From a virus, in IMG/VR virus record IMGVR_UViG_3300023281_001906, positions 1 through 30,606 of that record: DNA of 30,606 nucleotides, one strand, 5' to 3'. The notes below the pieces were generated by a model. It saw only the letters and a list, made by a program, of their open reading frames with translations. It ran no database searches and was not told the DNA's origin. Made by a program: the position numbers and the translations under genes. Below are positions 1,465 through 16,575 of the stretch, piece after piece; within the stretch, counting starts at the first letter, position 1, and each line of letters opens with the position of its first letter.

Positions 1465-2184
1465 ATGGGACTTCCTAAAATTGCTACACCATCTTATGAA
1501 CTTGAATTACCATCTACAGAAGAAGAGATTCAATATAGACCTTTTCTAGTTAAAGAAGAAAAACTATTAGTTATTGCTTTAGAAAGTGAAGATACAAAGC
1601 AAATTACTACAGCAATTAAAACAGTAATTAAGAACTGTATTCTTACCAAGAATATTAAAGTTGAAGCACTTCCAACTTTTGATATTGAGTATCTTTTTCT
1701 GAATATTCGCGGTAAGTCAGTTGGTGAAGAACTTGAAATAAATATCATCTGCCCAGATGATGGAGAAACTCAAGTTCCTGTAAAGATTAATTTGGATGAT
1801 ATCAAAGTTCAAAAGAACGAAGATCATACCAATAAAATTAAAGTAGATAAAAGTATTATGATGGAAATGAAATATCCATCATTGGACCAGTTCATTAAAA
1901 ACAATTTTGATTTTACAAATAAAAGTGCAATGGATCAGTCATTTGATTTGATTGCTTCTTGTATTGATAAAATTTTTACAGAAGATGAAGTATGGTCTAC
2001 TGCTGATGTGACTAAAAAAGAACTAACGGACTTTTTAGAGTCAATGAATTCTTCACAGTTCAAAGAGATTGAAAAGTTCTTTGAAACAATGCCCAAACTT
2101 TCACATAAGATTGCGATTACAAACCCAAAGACTGAAGTTGAAAGTGAAGTTATTTTAGAAGGGTTAGCATCTTTTTTCGCATAG
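1465..2184 (+). CDS. 26: gp26-like baseplate hub assembly protein (tail assembly chaperone type)
   Basis: A 239-aa protein of the T4 gp26 type (T4 gp26 is about 208 aa). The N-terminus LPKIATPSYELELPSTEEE, followed by a segment reading QYRPFLVKEEKLLVIALE, is the hallmark pattern of this family. A middle segment has a paired-cysteine-like NIICPDDGE strand. A helical C-terminus (residues 130-239) follows. gp26 helps assemble the baseplate hub and is probably a chaperone rather than a major virion component. The last codons read TCT TTT TTC GCA TAG. The U-UUU-UUC heptamer would let ribosomes slip -1 into the next ORF, giving a protein of about 303 aa. This layout is known for tail assembly chaperones of many long-tailed phages. 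The late box at 1425 is probably its promoter. Confidence 0.82.
   Translation: MGLPKIATPSYELELPSTEEEIQYRPFLVKEEKLLVIALESEDTKQITTAIKTVIKNCILTKNIKVEALPTFDIEYLFLNIRGKSVGEELEINIICPDDGETQVPVKINLDDIKVQKNEDHTNKIKVDKSIMMEMKYPSLDQFIKNNFDFTNKSAMDQSFDLIASCIDKIFTEDEVWSTADVTKKELTDFLESMNSSQFKEIEKFFETMPKLSHKIAITNPKTEVESEVILEGLASFFA
2172..2178 (+). other. Candidate programmed -1 ribosomal frameshift site (T TTT TTC)
   Basis: In the gp26 reading frame the codons are TCT TTT TTC GCA TAG. The heptamer T-TTT-TTC fits X-XXY-YYZ with both tRNAs able to re-pair after a -1 slip. In the -1 frame the codons CGC ATA GGA follow with no stop and run directly into the ORF at 2187. Function is inferred. Confidence 0.6.
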
Positions 2185-2186
2185 GA

Positions 2187-2375
2187 ATGATCCATATGGA
2201 TCTTGAGAATTATTTTCGTCTCAATTTTTCGTTAATGCAGTATCATAAATATTCATTAACAGAAATAGAAAATCTCATACCTTGGGAGAGGGATATCTAT
2301 GTTGGATTATTACAACAGCATCTTGTAGAAGAAGAATCAAAACAAAAACAACAGATGAGCAATGCCCAATTCTAA
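2187..2375 (+). CDS. 51: Short gp51-like tail assembly protein, possibly made as a gp26 frameshift extension
   Basis: A 62-aa ORF starting 2 nt after the gp26 stop and lying in its -1 frame. The core DLENYFRLNFSLMQYHKYS plus LIPWERDIYVGLL looks like the short helical protein that follows the gp26-like gene in marine T4-like phages, and is compared here to T4 gp51. The PWER-IY segment resembles short partner ORFs of tail assembly chaperones (lambda GT, P2 E'-type). T4 gp51 is about 249 aa, so the homology call is tentative. Two possible independent starts exist, ATG 2187 and ATG 2196. The only Shine-Dalgarno-like bases (AGGA, 2183-2186) suit 2196. Alternatively it is translated only after a -1 slip on the heptamer at 2172-2178. 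Its 3' end overlaps the next gene by 14 nt. Confidence 0.62.
   Translation: MIHMDLENYFRLNFSLMQYHKYSLTEIENLIPWERDIYVGLLQQHLVEEESKQKQQMSNAQF
2189..2202 (+). other. 14-nt perfect palindrome downstream of the slippery heptamer
   Basis: GATCCATATGGATC is a perfect palindrome starting 10 nt after the slippery heptamer. As RNA it can form a 5-bp hairpin with an AUAU loop holding part of the second candidate start codon. It could stimulate frameshifting or limit internal initiation; both roles are inference. Confidence 0.4.
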
Positions 2376-4509
2376 TCAAAAAGAAGTTATTGATACTAGA
2401 ATACTAGGGTTGATTGGTCTTGAGGATATTTTTGATTTAGATTATGAAACTTATCTAACGCTTCTTAAGGAAGCAATGGTTAAAGGTAGGATGGCTAAAA
2501 CAGCAATTCCTACTGAAGAGGTTGAACTTTTAACGAACGAATATAAAAGAGTTAAGACAAAAAAAGATAAAGGTAGATTTGAAGTAAAACCAAAAAAAAT
2601 AACTGCAGGTTCTTTTGCAGTTGGAAGTATAAAAGCAAAACTAGCAGGAACAAAATCAAAGGGACTTCTTCCTGCTGCAATAGGAAAGTCGCCCATTGCA
2701 AGTAGTTTAACTGATAGTATTGCTATAATTACTTCTGCAGTAACTTCAATTTTAGACACACTTAAAGCACAGAAAGCATTATCTGAGGGTGCTACTGCTT
2801 TTGATAGGAAAAAAACAGAACAAGATAAAAGAGCACTTGCAGAAAGTAAACTAGAAAAAAGATTTGAAGGATTAAAGAAAGCAGCGGAGAAGATAATTGC
2901 ACCTGTTAAATCTTTACTGGATAAAATATTAGAATTCTTTACAACAGTTATTCTTGGTAGAATTGTATATAAACTAATTGAATGGTTAGGGAATCCGGAG
3001 AATGCAAATAAAGTAAAATCTATTATAAGATTTTTTGGGGATAACTGGCCAAAACTTCTTGCACTTTATATTGCATTTGGAACTTCTTTTGGGAAGTTTG
3101 CAAGAGGTTTAATTGGTGTAGTTATAAAGGGAACTGGTGCATTAATTAAAGGTGCAGTTGGTCTTGCAGCGAGAGCAGGAATTAAAGGTGCTGGTGGTGC
3201 TCTTAAGTTTCTTGGTGGTCCAAAAGGAAAATTAATTGGTGCAGGATTAGAACTTGCTGCAGTTGCTGGAGGAACATTTGCATTAAGTAAAGGATTAGAA
3301 AACTTTGGTGGTATTGGTGGAGAAGCAAAAGAAACTCCCACACCAACTGCAAAATTTTCTGGTGGTGGATTTGCAAATTTTAAAAATCTATTTGGTGGAT
3401 TTTTTAACGGTCTTGTAAATGGAGAAAAAGGAATAGACAAAGTTCCTGCAATGCTTACTGACGGCGAGTTTGTAATGTCTCGTGGAGCAGTTCAAAAGTT
3501 TGGTGTAGATACGTTAGAAGGAATGAATGCTGCTGGAGGTGGAACGAATAGACCAAAAGTAGTTCAGGGAACCACTTATGCTGCAGGTGGTGGATTGGTT
3601 GGTTATGCTGGTAATATGATTAAGCATCACGAAGCACTTTCATCCTTAAAACCAGATCAAAACTATTATGTTTCATTAAAAAGTCCAGAGTATAAAAAAG
3701 TAAATGATAGCACAAAAATATATCCATATTTGGATAGTGTGAAAGTTCCTACAATAGGATGGGGTGCAACTTATTATGATAAAATTTCAAATGGAAAAAA
3801 ACCAGTAAAACTAACAGATCCTCCAATTACAAAGAAAGCGGCTGATGGTCTTTTGAATAAACATCTTGGAGAAATTATTCCTCTTGCTAAATCTAAACTT
3901 CCTTTATGGAACAAGATGTCTCCTCAACAACAAGGAACTGTTATTTCTTTTATGTACAATGCCGGTCCAAATTCAATCAATCCTTCAGGTCCTTATCCAA
4001 AATTTTCTAAATATTTGATTGAAGGAAATATGAAAGGGGCTGCTGGAGAAGTGAATAGAAGGGGTCCTGCAGTATCTAGAATAAATGAAGAAAAAAGATT
4101 ACTAACATCAGGTCCTTTAGATTTAAAAAAGGCAGTAGCAGCAAAACCAAAAGAAGAAAAAAAATCTTCGGGAATATTGGACAGGATTTCCTCTGGATTT
4201 AACTCTCTTTTTACTCCTCCTGCAGCAGCAAAAGAACCACGATATGCAAAAGGAGGAATGGTAGATTCTCCAGTAAATCCTATTGATACACCAAAAACAC
4301 CAGTTAAAGCAAATATTGCACCATCTAAACCAAATCGTATATCACCTGGACCTCTTCCAAGATCAATGCCCAAATCACAAGTTCTTCCATCTGGCGGAGC
4401 AGGTAGAAAGAGAAATGTTAGAGGTGGTGGAACAGTTAGCACTCCAAGTTTTAGCGCAACTACTAAAGGTGGTAGTGCAAAACAACAAACTCTTGGGTTG
4501 AATAGGTAA
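2362..4509 (+). CDS. Tape-measure-like tail protein with GH24 (T4 lysozyme-type) domain
   Basis: A 715-aa protein. Residues 1-190 are charged and helical. About 190-320 hold hydrophobic, Gly/Ala-rich segments that look membrane-active (KLLALYIAFGTSFGKF, GAVGLAARAGIKGAGG). Around 345-385 comes KVPAMLTDGEFVMSRGAV, a motif common in tape-measure proteins. Residues 415-590 resemble a phage lysozyme, with E424 (KHHEAL), D458 (PYLDS) and T464 (VPTIGWGAT). D-x5-T matches the T4 lysozyme D20/T26 spacing, but about 25 extra residues separate E from D. A Pro/Ser/Gly-rich tail follows. It probably sits in the tail lumen, sets or helps set tail length, and digests peptidoglycan during entry. T4 carries this lysozyme on gp5 instead. 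No gp29 homology is evident, so the tape-measure role is inferred from composition and position. Confidence 0.7.
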   Translation: MPNSNQKEVIDTRILGLIGLEDIFDLDYETYLTLLKEAMVKGRMAKTAIPTEEVELLTNEYKRVKTKKDKGRFEVKPKKITAGSFAVGSIKAKLAGTKSKGLLPAAIGKSPIASSLTDSIAIITSAVTSILDTLKAQKALSEGATAFDRKKTEQDKRALAESKLEKRFEGLKKAAEKIIAPVKSLLDKILEFFTTVILGRIVYKLIEWLGNPENANKVKSIIRFFGDNWPKLLALYIAFGTSFGKFARGLIGVVIKGTGALIKGAVGLAARAGIKGAGGALKFLGGPKGKLIGAGLELAAVAGGTFALSKGLENFGGIGGEAKETPTPTAKFSGGGFANFKNLFGGFFNGLVNGEKGIDKVPAMLTDGEFVMSRGAVQKFGVDTLEGMNAAGGGTNRPKVVQGTTYAAGGGLVGYAGNMIKHHEALSSLKPDQNYYVSLKSPEYKKVNDSTKIYPYLDSVKVPTIGWGATYYDKISNGKKPVKLTDPPITKKAADGLLNKHLGEIIPLAKSKLPLWNKMSPQQQGTVISFMYNAGPNSINPSGPYPKFSKYLIEGNMKGAAGEVNRRGPAVSRINEEKRLLTSGPLDLKKAVAAKPKEEKKSSGILDRISSGFNSLFTPPAAAKEPRYAKGGMVDSPVNPIDTPKTPVKANIAPSKPNRISPGPLPRSMPKSQVLPSGGAGRKRNVRGGGTVSTPSFSATTKGGSAKQQTLGLNR

Positions 4510-4514
4510 AATAA

Positions 4515-7325
4515 ATGGCTGTCAATATTCAAAAGTTTTTACCATCAGCAGCATCAAAAGGGGGAGCACTTTCAAAGGTCTCTCAAAACATTTCTAAAGG
4601 AAGTTCTTCGCTAGGAATTACAGAATCTGCTCAAAAAAATATTGGTATTATTAGTGTTAAGGTTGTTGAAATTGATAAGATTCTAAAAGGAACTCTTGCT
4701 TCCCAGAAGAAACAACTTGATAATCAAAAAAGACAGCAAAGTAGTAAGAGAAGAGAGAAACAAGAAGAAAAATTAGAAACAAAACCACAAGCAGAGAAAG
4801 GTTCAATTAAAATGCCCAAACTTCCAAAGTTGGGTATTTTTGATTGGATTAAGAACTTTATTGGTAATGTGGTTCTTGGATATTTTGCAGTTAGATTGGT
4901 AGACCATCTTCCAAAGATTATCCCTATCGTCAAATTTCTTGGAACTGCAACTGATTTAGTTCTTGGTCTTGGTGGAGACTTGCTTAATGGATTGATTACT
5001 TTTGTTGATTGGGGATACAAGGCATATGATTTTACAAAAAATCAATTAAAGAATTTTGGTGGAGATAATTTTATTAAAGTCTTTGATGCATTTACTGGTG
5101 CTATAGATGGAGTTGTAATTGCTGCACTTGCTGCATCATTTGCTCTCGTTGATATGATGGGAAGTAGAGATGGTGGTGGTGGTGCTGATATTAAAAAAGG
5201 TGGAAGACCAAAAGTAACAACGAGTGGTGGTGGTAGTAGAAATCCATTAAGACAAAGACCTAAAGTAACTTTTGGTGGTGGAAATAAAGCATTACTTTCT
5301 TCAGTAAAACCCTTTACAAAAAGACTTCCAGTTATTGGTGCTCTATTAGATTTTGGTCTTTCAGTTGCATTGGGCGAACCTGTTGGAAGAGCAGCATTCA
5401 AGGCAATTGGTGCCGGTCTTCTTGGTTCAATTGGTGCCGCATTAGGTGGCCCATTTGCAATTCTTACTGGTATTGCTGGTGGTATGGCGGGTGACTGGGC
5501 TGGTGGTGCATTATATGATCTATTCTTTGGTGGTAAAAAGTCATCAAATAGAGGTATTGCAAAGGCAGCAGGTGGAGGACAACCATCAACAAGAGGTGGA
5601 AGAACAGTTGATGGTGGACCATCTAGAAGAATTAAAAAATCAAAAACAAAAAGAACAGTATCAGTTCAACCAACTCCAATTAAACCTGGTGCAAATGTTG
5701 GTGGTGAAAAAAATATAGAGAAAGTATTTCCAAAATCAACAGATAAAACAAAGGTAAGTCCTTTGGATTATATTGAAACTTCACATAAGAAAATAGGCGA
5801 AGAACCCTTCTTTGGTCCACTGATGAATATCTCAACCAAAGCTTTGGTTGGTCAAAAAGCCAGTAAAGTTGATTATAAAAATGCAGCACAGGGTTTAAGT
5901 AACTGGATGAATGTTACATTTAGTGATGAGATATTAAGAACTGGTGCTCTTTATGCTGCTGGTGGTGGAGAGATTGATGCAAAATTATTAGAAAGTAAAA
6001 GTGGTGATATGACTGATGCGATTGCAAAGTCACTTGAAGATAATATTTCTAAAAGGATTGATGGGACTATCAATGATCTTATGAAACAGATGATGTTGAA
6101 ACAACCAACTAAAGAATTGGACAAAACTGATCCAACAATTGATACCGAAGAAGATGTCCCTTCAGAATTAACTAAAGGGCAGTGGGGACCTCTATTGGAT
6201 CTTATTGCAGGTAAAGAATCTGGTGGAAATTATGAAGCAATGTATCCAAGCACTACTCTTCCGGGTGCAACAAAAATGACTATTACTGAAGTTGCAAGAA
6301 GGGCAACTGGTGCAGTTGGCAAATATCAACAACTTCCACAATATCTTGTCGGAAGAGCAAAGGCTGCAGGTCTTAATCCGGATAAAGATCTTTATAGTCC
6401 AGAAAATCAAGAAAAGATTATTATTAATGTTAATATTAAAGGTAGGGGTGGAGAAAAGTGGTTAAGAGGAGAAATAAGTGACGAACAATTTATGCAGGGG
6501 TTGTCTCAAGAATTTGCTTCTTTACCAAATTCCCAGGGCAAGTTTTATTATACAGGACAAAGAAGTGCTATGACTCCGGAGAAAGTAAAGGCGTCTCTTT
6601 CTAAAGTTAGAGGTGGTGGGTATTCTCAACAAGAATTAGCAGAATCTCAACAAAATATGATACCAGGAGGAAAATCTGGCGTCATTGAATACATAACAGG
6701 AGATAGAAATCACTCAAACTTTGAATTAAGAGGTCACGGCCTCCCCGGAAATTATCATGATCACATTGCATTTTCTTCAATACAAGAAAAAGAAAGAGCT
6801 AAAAGAAATTTAATATCCGCTGGTATTAAAATTGGAAGTGAACTTCGCCCTGGGGATCGTGGATATCATGGAAGAAATCTAGCGATTGATATTCCGGGAT
6901 ATCAATGGGGTGGAAGTGGTTCTATTGGTGATAAAGAATTCGTTGGATCTAAAAGAGTTCGCCAAATTTTGGGTATTGGTAATGAGGTTCCCTTTGAAAA
7001 AGGTGGAAAGGTAAATGGATTTACGAGAGCAATTCTTGGTGAAAAAGGTCCAGAGTTTGTTATTGATGCAGATTCTACAAGAGCATTAGAAGAAAATTTC
7101 CCAGGATTTTTAGGTGCATTAAATAGAGCAAACTATGAAAATGCATTAAAAGTTTTAAGAAACTACACCAATTATGAAATGCCTTCTCCGGAGGTTGTTT
7201 ATATTCCATTTCCAATTCCAAGTAATGTAGAAGAAGATTATTCGTCACAATCTTCAGGTGGTCTTGCAATGTTTGCTGGTGGAGAATCTGATGATCCCTT
7301 TAAGACTTTATATCAAGGCACTTAA
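4515..7325 (+). CDS. Second tape-measure-like tail protein with lambda-type lysozyme-like and M15-like domains
   Basis: A 936-aa protein starting 5 nt after its neighbour. N-terminal ~100 residues are charged and coiled-coil-like. About 105-170 and 265-345 hold hydrophobic Gly/Ala segments (FIGNVVLGYFAVRLVDHL; LLGSIGAALGGPFAILTG). Residues ~560-710 resemble the lambda endolysin/transglycosylase fold, with E568 in GKESGGNYE, then GAVGKYQQLP and SPENQEKI. Residues ~725-815 resemble a metal-dependent M15-type domain: H748-D-H750 (YHDHIAF) and H785-x6-D792 (HGRNLAID, compare HxxGxAxD), followed by QWGGSGSIG. The C-terminus has AILGEKGPEFVIDADSTRAL, a tape-measure-like tail motif. Together with the preceding protein it may form the lumen-filling core of the tail and clear a path through the wall. 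Enzyme activities are inferred from motifs. Confidence 0.66.
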   Translation: MAVNIQKFLPSAASKGGALSKVSQNISKGSSSLGITESAQKNIGIISVKVVEIDKILKGTLASQKKQLDNQKRQQSSKRREKQEEKLETKPQAEKGSIKMPKLPKLGIFDWIKNFIGNVVLGYFAVRLVDHLPKIIPIVKFLGTATDLVLGLGGDLLNGLITFVDWGYKAYDFTKNQLKNFGGDNFIKVFDAFTGAIDGVVIAALAASFALVDMMGSRDGGGGADIKKGGRPKVTTSGGGSRNPLRQRPKVTFGGGNKALLSSVKPFTKRLPVIGALLDFGLSVALGEPVGRAAFKAIGAGLLGSIGAALGGPFAILTGIAGGMAGDWAGGALYDLFFGGKKSSNRGIAKAAGGGQPSTRGGRTVDGGPSRRIKKSKTKRTVSVQPTPIKPGANVGGEKNIEKVFPKSTDKTKVSPLDYIETSHKKIGEEPFFGPLMNISTKALVGQKASKVDYKNAAQGLSNWMNVTFSDEILRTGALYAAGGGEIDAKLLESKSGDMTDAIAKSLEDNISKRIDGTINDLMKQMMLKQPTKELDKTDPTIDTEEDVPSELTKGQWGPLLDLIAGKESGGNYEAMYPSTTLPGATKMTITEVARRATGAVGKYQQLPQYLVGRAKAAGLNPDKDLYSPENQEKIIINVNIKGRGGEKWLRGEISDEQFMQGLSQEFASLPNSQGKFYYTGQRSAMTPEKVKASLSKVRGGGYSQQELAESQQNMIPGGKSGVIEYITGDRNHSNFELRGHGLPGNYHDHIAFSSIQEKERAKRNLISAGIKIGSELRPGDRGYHGRNLAIDIPGYQWGGSGSIGDKEFVGSKRVRQILGIGNEVPFEKGGKVNGFTRAILGEKGPEFVIDADSTRALEENFPGFLGALNRANYENALKVLRNYTNYEMPSPEVVYIPFPIPSNVEEDYSSQSSGGLAMFAGGESDDPFKTLYQGT

Positions 7326-15037: not shown

Positions 15038-15724
15038 ATGGCTTTTTTAATGGATGATGTTGCATCAGGTGGTCAATTAATAGTTGGTGCAGGAAAACCA
15101 GGAGCACTTGGAGTTGGACCAAATAAAATTAGAGGTTCTGCATTTATTGAAGGACCCTTGCAGATTGGTAAGGCAGGTGCATATGGTAAAGTTCAATCCA
15201 CAGTAATGATTGGGCAACTTGGTAATAGTGATACCTCTTCACAAACTTATTCTTTATGGGTCAAAGATAAGGCAAGATTTCAAAGTAATGTAAGAATTGA
15301 TAGTCTCTGTAAAGCAAAAAGATTTGAAAGTCAAACTGGAAGAATTGATTCTATTCGTGGGAACTCCTTACGTTATGGTTCCAAGAGTTTCCTGATAGAT
15401 CATCCAACCAAACCAGGAATGAAACTGGAGTATGGATGCCTTGAAGGTCCAGAGCATTCTGTTTATTGTAGAGGTAAGGTATTAAATCGTGATTACATTG
15501 AACTTCCACAAGAATGGACGGGTCTTGTAGATGATACAACAATCACTGTTTCATTAACACCAATTGGAGCACACCAGGACATTATTGTAAAGAGAATTGG
15601 AGAAAATAAAGTATTTCTTCAATCAAAAGGTGGAATGCCCATTCATTGCTTCTATCACGTCTTTGCAACCAGAAAAGACATTCCAAAACTTACTACTGAA
15701 TATTATGAGGAGGAAAATACCTGA
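15038..15724 (+). CDS. Virion structural protein with C-terminal 'CLEGPE' domain (paralogue 1)
   Basis: A 228-aa protein preceded by a near-perfect Shine-Dalgarno (AAAGGAGG, 15024-15031). The N-terminus (1-115) is Gly-rich and beta-like (GGQLIVGAGKPGALGVGPNK). The C-terminal ~115 residues begin SFLIDHPTKPGMKLEYGCLE and contain CLEGPEHSVYCRGKV, LPQEWTGLVD and SLTPIGAHQDIIV. The same domain ends the next protein, so the pair arose by duplication or domain sharing. I associate this domain with cyanophage tail-fibre-like proteins but know no function for it. Its stop overlaps the next start (TGATG). Confidence 0.6.
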   Translation: MAFLMDDVASGGQLIVGAGKPGALGVGPNKIRGSAFIEGPLQIGKAGAYGKVQSTVMIGQLGNSDTSSQTYSLWVKDKARFQSNVRIDSLCKAKRFESQTGRIDSIRGNSLRYGSKSFLIDHPTKPGMKLEYGCLEGPEHSVYCRGKVLNRDYIELPQEWTGLVDDTTITVSLTPIGAHQDIIVKRIGENKVFLQSKGGMPIHCFYHVFATRKDIPKLTTEYYEEENT

Positions 15725-16575
15725 TGGGAATTGTTAATAATCAAGGAGTTTTTATTGCACCTCCTTTGGGTGAAGGTGAAGGTACAACACTCACAAGTTT
15801 TAGAGATGATGATGATTTCAGTACTGAAATCTTTGACCAGTCAATTGTTCTTCCAAGTTTTCCAAATAATGTAGGTATTGCATTTGTAAAGACTTCCGAT
15901 TCTCCTGAAGATTATCTAACATTTTCTTTGAATGGAACTGATACTTCAACAGTTTATGTGGAGAATACTGCAAGTATTGCAAGTCTTGCAGTATCTAATA
16001 ATGTTTATGTTGGATATAAGGCAACACCTACTGGAATTTCGGGTATAGGAATTACTGGATATTTGTATGTAAACGATGATGCATATGTGGGCGGTAATGT
16101 TATTGCTACTGGTGATGTTATTGCTACTGGTGATGTTACTGCTACTGGTGATGTTACTGCTACTGAAGTTACTGCAAGCGGAATTACTTTAACTTCCAGA
16201 AAAGCATTTGATATTCCACATCCATCAAAAGAAGGGTGGAGGCTTCGTCACATTTGTTTAGAGGGTCCAGAGTCTGCTGTCTATTATCGAGGAAGACTTG
16301 CAGATTCGAATGTTATTACTCTTCCCGAATATTGGGTTGGACTTGTGGATCCAGAAAGTATAACTGTAAATCTAACTCAAATTGGATTTTCTCAAGATTT
16401 GATTGTTGAAAAAATAGAACAAGGTAAAAAAGTATTCATTAAATCTAATAATGCATCAAATATTGATTGCTATTTCCTGATTCATGGAGAAAGAACTGAT
16501 GGTGAAAAGTTGATTGTAGAATATGAGGGCGAGGAATATCCTGGTGATAATGACCAATACAGTCTCAATAGATAA
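15724..16575 (+). CDS. Virion structural protein with C-terminal 'CLEGPE' domain (paralogue 2) and tandem repeats
   Basis: A 283-aa protein whose start overlaps the previous stop (TGATG) and which has its own Shine-Dalgarno (GAGGAGG, 15707-15713). Residues 1-120 are beta-rich and not recognised. Residues ~126-151 are a short tandem repeat of VIATGD/VTATGD units. From ~160 the domain shared with the preceding gene appears: AFDIPHPSKEGWRLRHICLE, GPESAVYYRGRL, LPEYWVGLVDPES and NLTQIGFSQDLIVE. Sharing of the C-terminal domain with different N-terminal halves suggests modular structural proteins, perhaps fibre or baseplate appendages. It is the last structural gene before the accessory island. 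Confidence 0.6.
   Translation: MGIVNNQGVFIAPPLGEGEGTTLTSFRDDDDFSTEIFDQSIVLPSFPNNVGIAFVKTSDSPEDYLTFSLNGTDTSTVYVENTASIASLAVSNNVYVGYKATPTGISGIGITGYLYVNDDAYVGGNVIATGDVIATGDVTATGDVTATEVTASGITLTSRKAFDIPHPSKEGWRLRHICLEGPESAVYYRGRLADSNVITLPEYWVGLVDPESITVNLTQIGFSQDLIVEKIEQGKKVFIKSNNASNIDCYFLIHGERTDGEKLIVEYEGEEYPGDNDQYSLNR
16099..16167 (+). repeat. 18-bp tandem repeat (about 4 copies)
   Basis: Units of GTTATTGCTACTGGTGAT occur at 16099-16116 and 16117-16134, with GTTACTGCTACTGGTGAT at 16135-16152 and a shortened unit at 16153-16167. They encode VIATGD/VTATGD in frame, so copy-number change would alter protein length without frameshift. Confidence 0.85.

Follow-up and report, generated by a model that had tools for sequence, protein, structure and literature searches.

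We propose that the virus whose DNA is described here, which infects marine cyanobacteria, programs a -1 ribosomal frameshift at the 3' end of its gene 26 and thereby would make two forms of a tail-assembly chaperone. Judged from the DNA and its relatives, we hold this reading to be highly probable, and on bioinformatic grounds the evidence for a programmed -1 frameshift is very strong. In the window, by which we mean the entire stretch of DNA analyzed (30,606 nucleotides), the zero frame of gp26 occupies positions 1465-2184 on the plus strand, encodes 239 amino acids (the candidate short chaperone, TAC-N) and ends TCT TTT TTC GCA TAG, with the stop codon at 2182-2184. The heptamer T TTT TTC at 2172-2178 stands in the right phase for tandem -1 slippage, just as the original prediction had it. 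Following such a slip the message would be read as CGC ATA GGA ATG ATC CAT ATG GAT..., a frame that stays open through the 62-aa ORF starting at 2187 and up to a stop codon at 2373-2375. The fusion protein that had been estimated at about 303 residues comes to exactly that length (238 + 65), its 65 post-slip residues being encoded by positions 2178-2375 of the plus strand, and its predicted residues across the slip are ..EGLASFFR / IGMIHMDLENYFR.. (..EGLASFFRIGM..).

The surrounding genes, all on the plus strand, are arranged in the order tail tube-like gene, gp26, C-terminal domain and tape-measure candidate, the last of which is weak by sequence. The tail tube-like gene lies at 549-1409 (PF23849 Phage_TTP_2, E=1.3e-10; phrog_45 tail tube, E=1.3e-30). 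The gp26 product matches PF12322 (T4_baseplate, the T4 gp26 family) with 255 bits against a gathering cutoff of 24.5 (E=6.8e-76), as well as phrog_150 (E=2.1e-78). The -1 extension, which in the records of relatives is annotated as a separate gp51, matches phrog_634 (baseplate hub assembly catalyst, E=3.1e-27) and also the last ~40 columns of phrog_150 (columns 241-279); since the latter is the gp26 family itself, fused forms must exist. The next gene, at 2362-4509, encodes 715 amino acids with a lysozyme domain (PF00959, E=4.9e-9), and from its position and its weak matches to tape-measure PHROGs (best E=0.0015) it probably encodes the tape measure. This product and that of the following gene (4515-7325, 936 aa) are consecutive large proteins that both have endolysin-type PHROG matches, with the phage lysozyme domain located in the first of the two, and either or both could be tape-measure proteins bearing cell-wall-degrading domains. 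Elsewhere in the window, two adjacent ORFs at 15038-16575 (228 and 283 aa) both match PHROGs 17490 and 28536, which suggests a tandem duplication with no function assigned, and a 214-aa ORF at 17809-18453 matches PHROGs for Mom-like DNA modification and for HNH/homing endonucleases.

The heptamer by itself is not unusual in the window, which is AT-rich (14 occurrences of TTTTTTC versus 19 expected); we therefore place the case on its conservation. Alignment across relatives had been named as a check, and we carried it out on 148 distinct junctions collected from two scans of viral contigs and from sixteen annotated phage regions. TTTTTTC is present at 145 of them, including those of P-SSM2, S-SSM7, S-CAM4, Aeromonas PX29, Vibrio PVA23, Stenotrophomonas Mendera and Acidovorax ACP17. 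The three junctions that do not have it at the site are those of T4, Vibrio phage 1.255 and Sinorhizobium phiM19, the last of which has T TTT TTT instead, placed two codons closer to the 5' end and with the -1 frame still open. The codon preceding the heptamer varies (TCT at 82 junctions, AGT at 48, GGT at 6, GAT at 5, AAT and GCT at 2 each) and yet its last base is T at every junction that has the heptamer, across all six codons.

Perceivably, the T6C string could be a mere by-product of a conserved Ser-Phe-Phe C-terminus combined with AT-rich codon usage, with no recoding involved. Its lack of over-representation in the window would agree with this, as would the invariance of Phe-Phe and the general preference for TTT over TTC (1204 versus 462 Phe codons elsewhere). 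Codon-level data, however, already refute this explanation, which we regard as barely credible. Among 53 loci thinned to below 80% nucleotide identity, the TTT and TTC of the site are the sole invariant codon columns out of 44 well-conserved degenerate ones (mean heterozygosity 0.43), while both TTT and TTC occur in each of five further conserved Phe columns; moreover, it is the rarer codon, TTC, that is fixed in the second Phe position. Neither the fixed third-position T of the preceding codon nor the -1 frame that is open wherever the heptamer is present is accommodated by it.

The same pattern extends to more distant relatives. Scanning genome contigs with the C-terminal domain of P-SSM2 returned 27 loci, 26 of which were readable across the junction, and all 26 have T6 at the identical position, as TTTTTTC (17 loci), TTTTTTT (7) or TTTTTTA (2), each of which is a classical -1 heptamer. 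The slippery run, whose conservation the original prediction asked to be tested, is kept in close and divergent relatives alike. A conserved homopolymer also invites the thought that RNA polymerase slips on the T run, such that insertions or deletions in the mRNA join the two frames, and runs of at least seven T's do occur in some divergent loci (L184, L188, L189, L199 and L202). In nearly all close relatives, though, the run is exactly six T's followed by C, which is short for such slippage, whereas UUUUUUC/U/A suits tandem slippage of tRNAs, and the covarying hairpin and the biased Shine-Dalgarno (SD)-like codons described below fit a ribosomal mechanism. We thus consider transcriptional slippage exceedingly improbable. 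As a separate observation, loci L177-L203 are T4-like gp26/gp51 junctions in contigs labelled as metagenome-assembled genomes of Flavobacteriales, Euryarchaeota, Chloroflexi and others, with L198 being a strain genome of Nonlabens xiamenensis; the contigs with such metagenomic labels are probably phage contigs that were binned with, or that infect, the named organisms.

Maintenance of the -1 frame contrasts with the erosion of any start signal for the second ORF. Counted over the 148 junctions, the frame runs on for 57-70 codons with a single exception, and it is open in every relative that has the heptamer. The main competing explanation treats the 62-aa ORF as a normal gene in its own right, whose translation would begin by termination-reinitiation at TAG-GA-ATG (2182-2189) or from a second ATG at 2196. 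It can draw on the retention of ATG at 2187 in 101 of the 148 junctions and at 2196 in 132, by reason of which some independent initiation is possible, on gp26 stop codons that overlap or abut an ATG in some non-cyanobacterial relatives, and on the annotators' labelling of this ORF as gp51. Many relatives nevertheless have a non-start codon at position 2187, mostly Leu (CTG, CTA, CTC, CTT or TTA), such that the protein alignment shows Met or Leu there, as expected for an internal residue of a fusion. Among the 26 divergent loci, ATG is absent at the putative start in 19 (CTT, CTC, CTG, CTA, TTA, TTC or TGT instead), and a search for ATG or GTG from -9 to +45 found none in 11; likewise, none is found near the junction in L155, S-RIM2, P-RSM1, S-CAM4 and Aeromonas PX29. 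Nor does an SD sequence point to this start, a 4-nt core preceding it in only 27 of 141 cyanophage-type loci and being absent in the remaining 114. Hence the strong independent start that would have spoken for a separate gene is not what the relatives display. Existing annotation is itself unsettled, for many phage records either split off the C-terminal domain as a gene of its own, with starts that differ from record to record, or leave it out: the start annotated in S-RIM2 falls deep within the conserved domain, and in S-CAM4 and P-RSM1 nothing is annotated at the domain at all. A separate gene would in addition leave the invariant heptamer unexplained, and we deem it very unlikely as an alternative to frameshifting.

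Further support for a programmed frameshift comes from what lies on either side of the slippery site. Downstream, the palindrome GATCCATATGGATC occupies positions 2189-2202, 10 nt past the heptamer, with GATCC and GGATC on either side of ATAT, so that the hairpin-forming 14-nt palindrome noticed originally is confirmed and, what is more, its base pairs covary. In 72 aligned junctions, all five pairs change on both sides, giving 28 double-change cells versus 5.9 in shuffles, and 86% of hairpin cells are paired; all of these measures drop when the partner is displaced by 1-3 columns. No other part of the junction region is as structured as this hairpin, a candidate stimulator, whose mean z over 101 thinned loci is -2.25. 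The window's own downstream fold is unexceptional (z = -1.31), and the stem has only 5 bp at a spacing of 10 nt, slightly far from the heptamer. In the more distant isolates P-SSM2, S-SSM7 and ACG-2014f the stem is longer and begins about 5-6 nt after the heptamer (alignment columns 28-37 with 47-56). A single long consensus stem formed by these columns across the alignment was considered and rejected, only 44.9% of it being paired, and the geometry of the hairpin is thus lineage-specific. The 26 divergent loci have a mean z of -1.31, versus -0.10 in control stretches, and several of them are without a clear stem. RNAalifold, run on the whole junction alignment, returned nothing but base pairs of the SD-like run with the T run, in which two-sided changes are lacking, and an Rfam search of positions 2050-2450 gave no match. 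A second small stem of 6 bp is predicted directly after the palindrome, at 2203-2224.

Upstream, the SD-like sequence GAAGGG at 2158-2163 ends 8 nt before the heptamer and represents the second candidate stimulator. An SD-like core of at least 4 nt, in the form of GAGG or AAGGG, is found 8-9 nt before the heptamer in 140 of 141 loci. Glu-Gly is conserved at this site, and conservation of the SD-like core is therefore partly coding. Even so, codon choice there is strongly biased, to either GAG-GGN or GAA-GGG: the Glu codon is GAG in 39 of 52 cases versus 339 of 1086 elsewhere (p = 3e-10, ignoring shared ancestry), and where it is GAA, the next codon is GGG in 9 of 13 cases versus 2 of 39 (p = 9e-6, likewise ignoring shared ancestry). 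With an SD-like element upstream and a covarying hairpin downstream, the arrangement resembles the -1 cassette of E. coli dnaX, which consists of an SD sequence, the slippery heptamer A AAA AAG and a hairpin (PMC5600365). The likeness lies in this three-part layout; the window differs in using U UUU UUC, in having a short and lineage-dependent hairpin, and in that the cassette sits in another gene and serves another purpose.

What the two products are is best understood from T4. There, gene 26 is on the strand opposite to that of gene 51 (in the T4 region, L161, gene 51 at 1692-2441 and gene 26 at 2492-3118), and the two look like divergently placed paralogues. T4 gp51 is one uninterrupted ORF of 249 amino acids that comprises a gp26-type domain (PF12322, E=7.7e-55, residues 1-201) followed by the C-terminal domain (phrog_634, E=8.2e-24), whereas in the window the latter is encoded in the -1 frame; in keeping with this homology, T4 gp51 aligns across the junction of the cyanophage-fusion profile, with E-values that refer to two sequences only. 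It follows that T4 has one gene for the short form and another for the long, whereas the cyanophages would obtain both from a single frameshifted gene. The proposal of a gp26/gp51 frameshift in T4-like phages thus stands for the relatives in which the heptamer is conserved and falls for T4 itself, which, judging by the strands of its genes, does not frameshift there. Vladimirov and colleagues are said to have found the frameshift conserved in several T4-like groups and separate genes 26 and 51 in T4, and with the latter our strand layout and gp51 domains agree independently. Because T4 gp51 is a gp26-like domain joined to the C-terminal domain, gp26 is most likely the short tail-assembly chaperone, by analogy to lambda gpG, and the frameshift product the long one, by analogy to gpGT; homology and gene order together make a chaperone role likely. 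Family scans found no sequence homology between lambda G/GT and the window proteins, and the slippery heptamer of lambda G/GT is G GGA AAG in place of the U UUU UUC of the window. A structural model of gp26 (pLDDT 85) had no significant Foldseek match in the PDB, the top one being the HK97 tail assembly chaperone 2OB9 (non-significant E=0.8, TM 0.35-0.40), while in BFVD it matched mainly gp26 relatives.

Frameshifting at lambda G/GT is well documented (Levin 1993; Xu 2004, 2013, 2014; reviewed in PMC5009743), and the 2016 review PMC5009743 describes the G-T frameshift as widespread and general in long-tailed phages 'except T4'. The original prediction knew of no described example for the T4-like gp26/gp51 pair, and on this point it has to be amended. 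According to PMC12846349 and PMC10885494, Vladimirov, Gautam and Davidson (Virology 2022) recognized which genes of T4-like phages encode the TACs; the former cites them for -1 frameshift signals of the poly-T kind within the TAC-N genes of these phages and the latter for the occurrence, in some T4-like phages, of distinct genes for the short and the long form. Going by these two citing papers, the main claim, a frameshift at the T4-like chaperone gene, is correct but was already described in 2022. What may go beyond that earlier description is the covariation of the hairpin, the bias of the SD-like codons and the lineages without any start codon. PMC12846349 also describes a TAC frameshift at a GTTTTT motif in Pakpunavirus/Vandenendeviridae, which likewise is predicted to be a -1 slip on poly-U within the TAC gene of a myovirus, one that had long been annotated as two genes, but concerns a separate virus group. 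Finally, Sullivan et al. 2010 (PMC3037559) noted that cyanophage gp51 has about 20% of the length of its T4 counterpart and that gp51 of cyanophages and marine vibriophage lacks the first ~200 residues; the word 'frameshift' is absent from that paper. Our model would explain this apparent truncation, in that gp26 would supply these residues through the frameshift.

In the model that we favor, most ribosomes would terminate at the TAG at 2182 and release the 239-aa gp26 (TAC-N), while a smaller share would be held up at the heptamer, both by the hairpin at 2189-2202 and by the pairing of their anti-Shine-Dalgarno sequence with GAAGGG at 2158-2163. These ribosomes would slip from U UUU UUC to UUU UUU and continue in the -1 frame to produce the 303-aa gp26-gp51 fusion (TAC-NC). 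By analogy to lambda gpG and gpGT, the role of TAC-N would be to coat the tape-measure protein, and that of the C-terminal domain of TAC-NC to recruit tail-tube subunits. That ribosomes shift frame here inside the cell, how often they do so, what each stimulator contributes and that the products act as chaperones are all inferences of ours.

More broadly, we give roughly an even chance to the proposition that cyanobacterial T4-like phages share a full dnaX-style cassette, made up of a selected SD-like element, U UUU UU(C/U/A) and a covarying stem-loop, of which other relatives, among them those of Sinorhizobium, Vibrio, Aeromonas and Stenotrophomonas, retain the heptamer while the T4 lineage carries a pre-fused gene 51, and that the stimulators may be undescribed, as may the lineages with no apparent way other than frameshifting to make the C-terminal domain. 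Taken together, the frameshift reading would bring T4-like phages under the general tail-assembly-chaperone scheme, with two evolutionary routes leading to a short and a long chaperone, one by frameshifting and the other by way of a separate, pre-fused gene.
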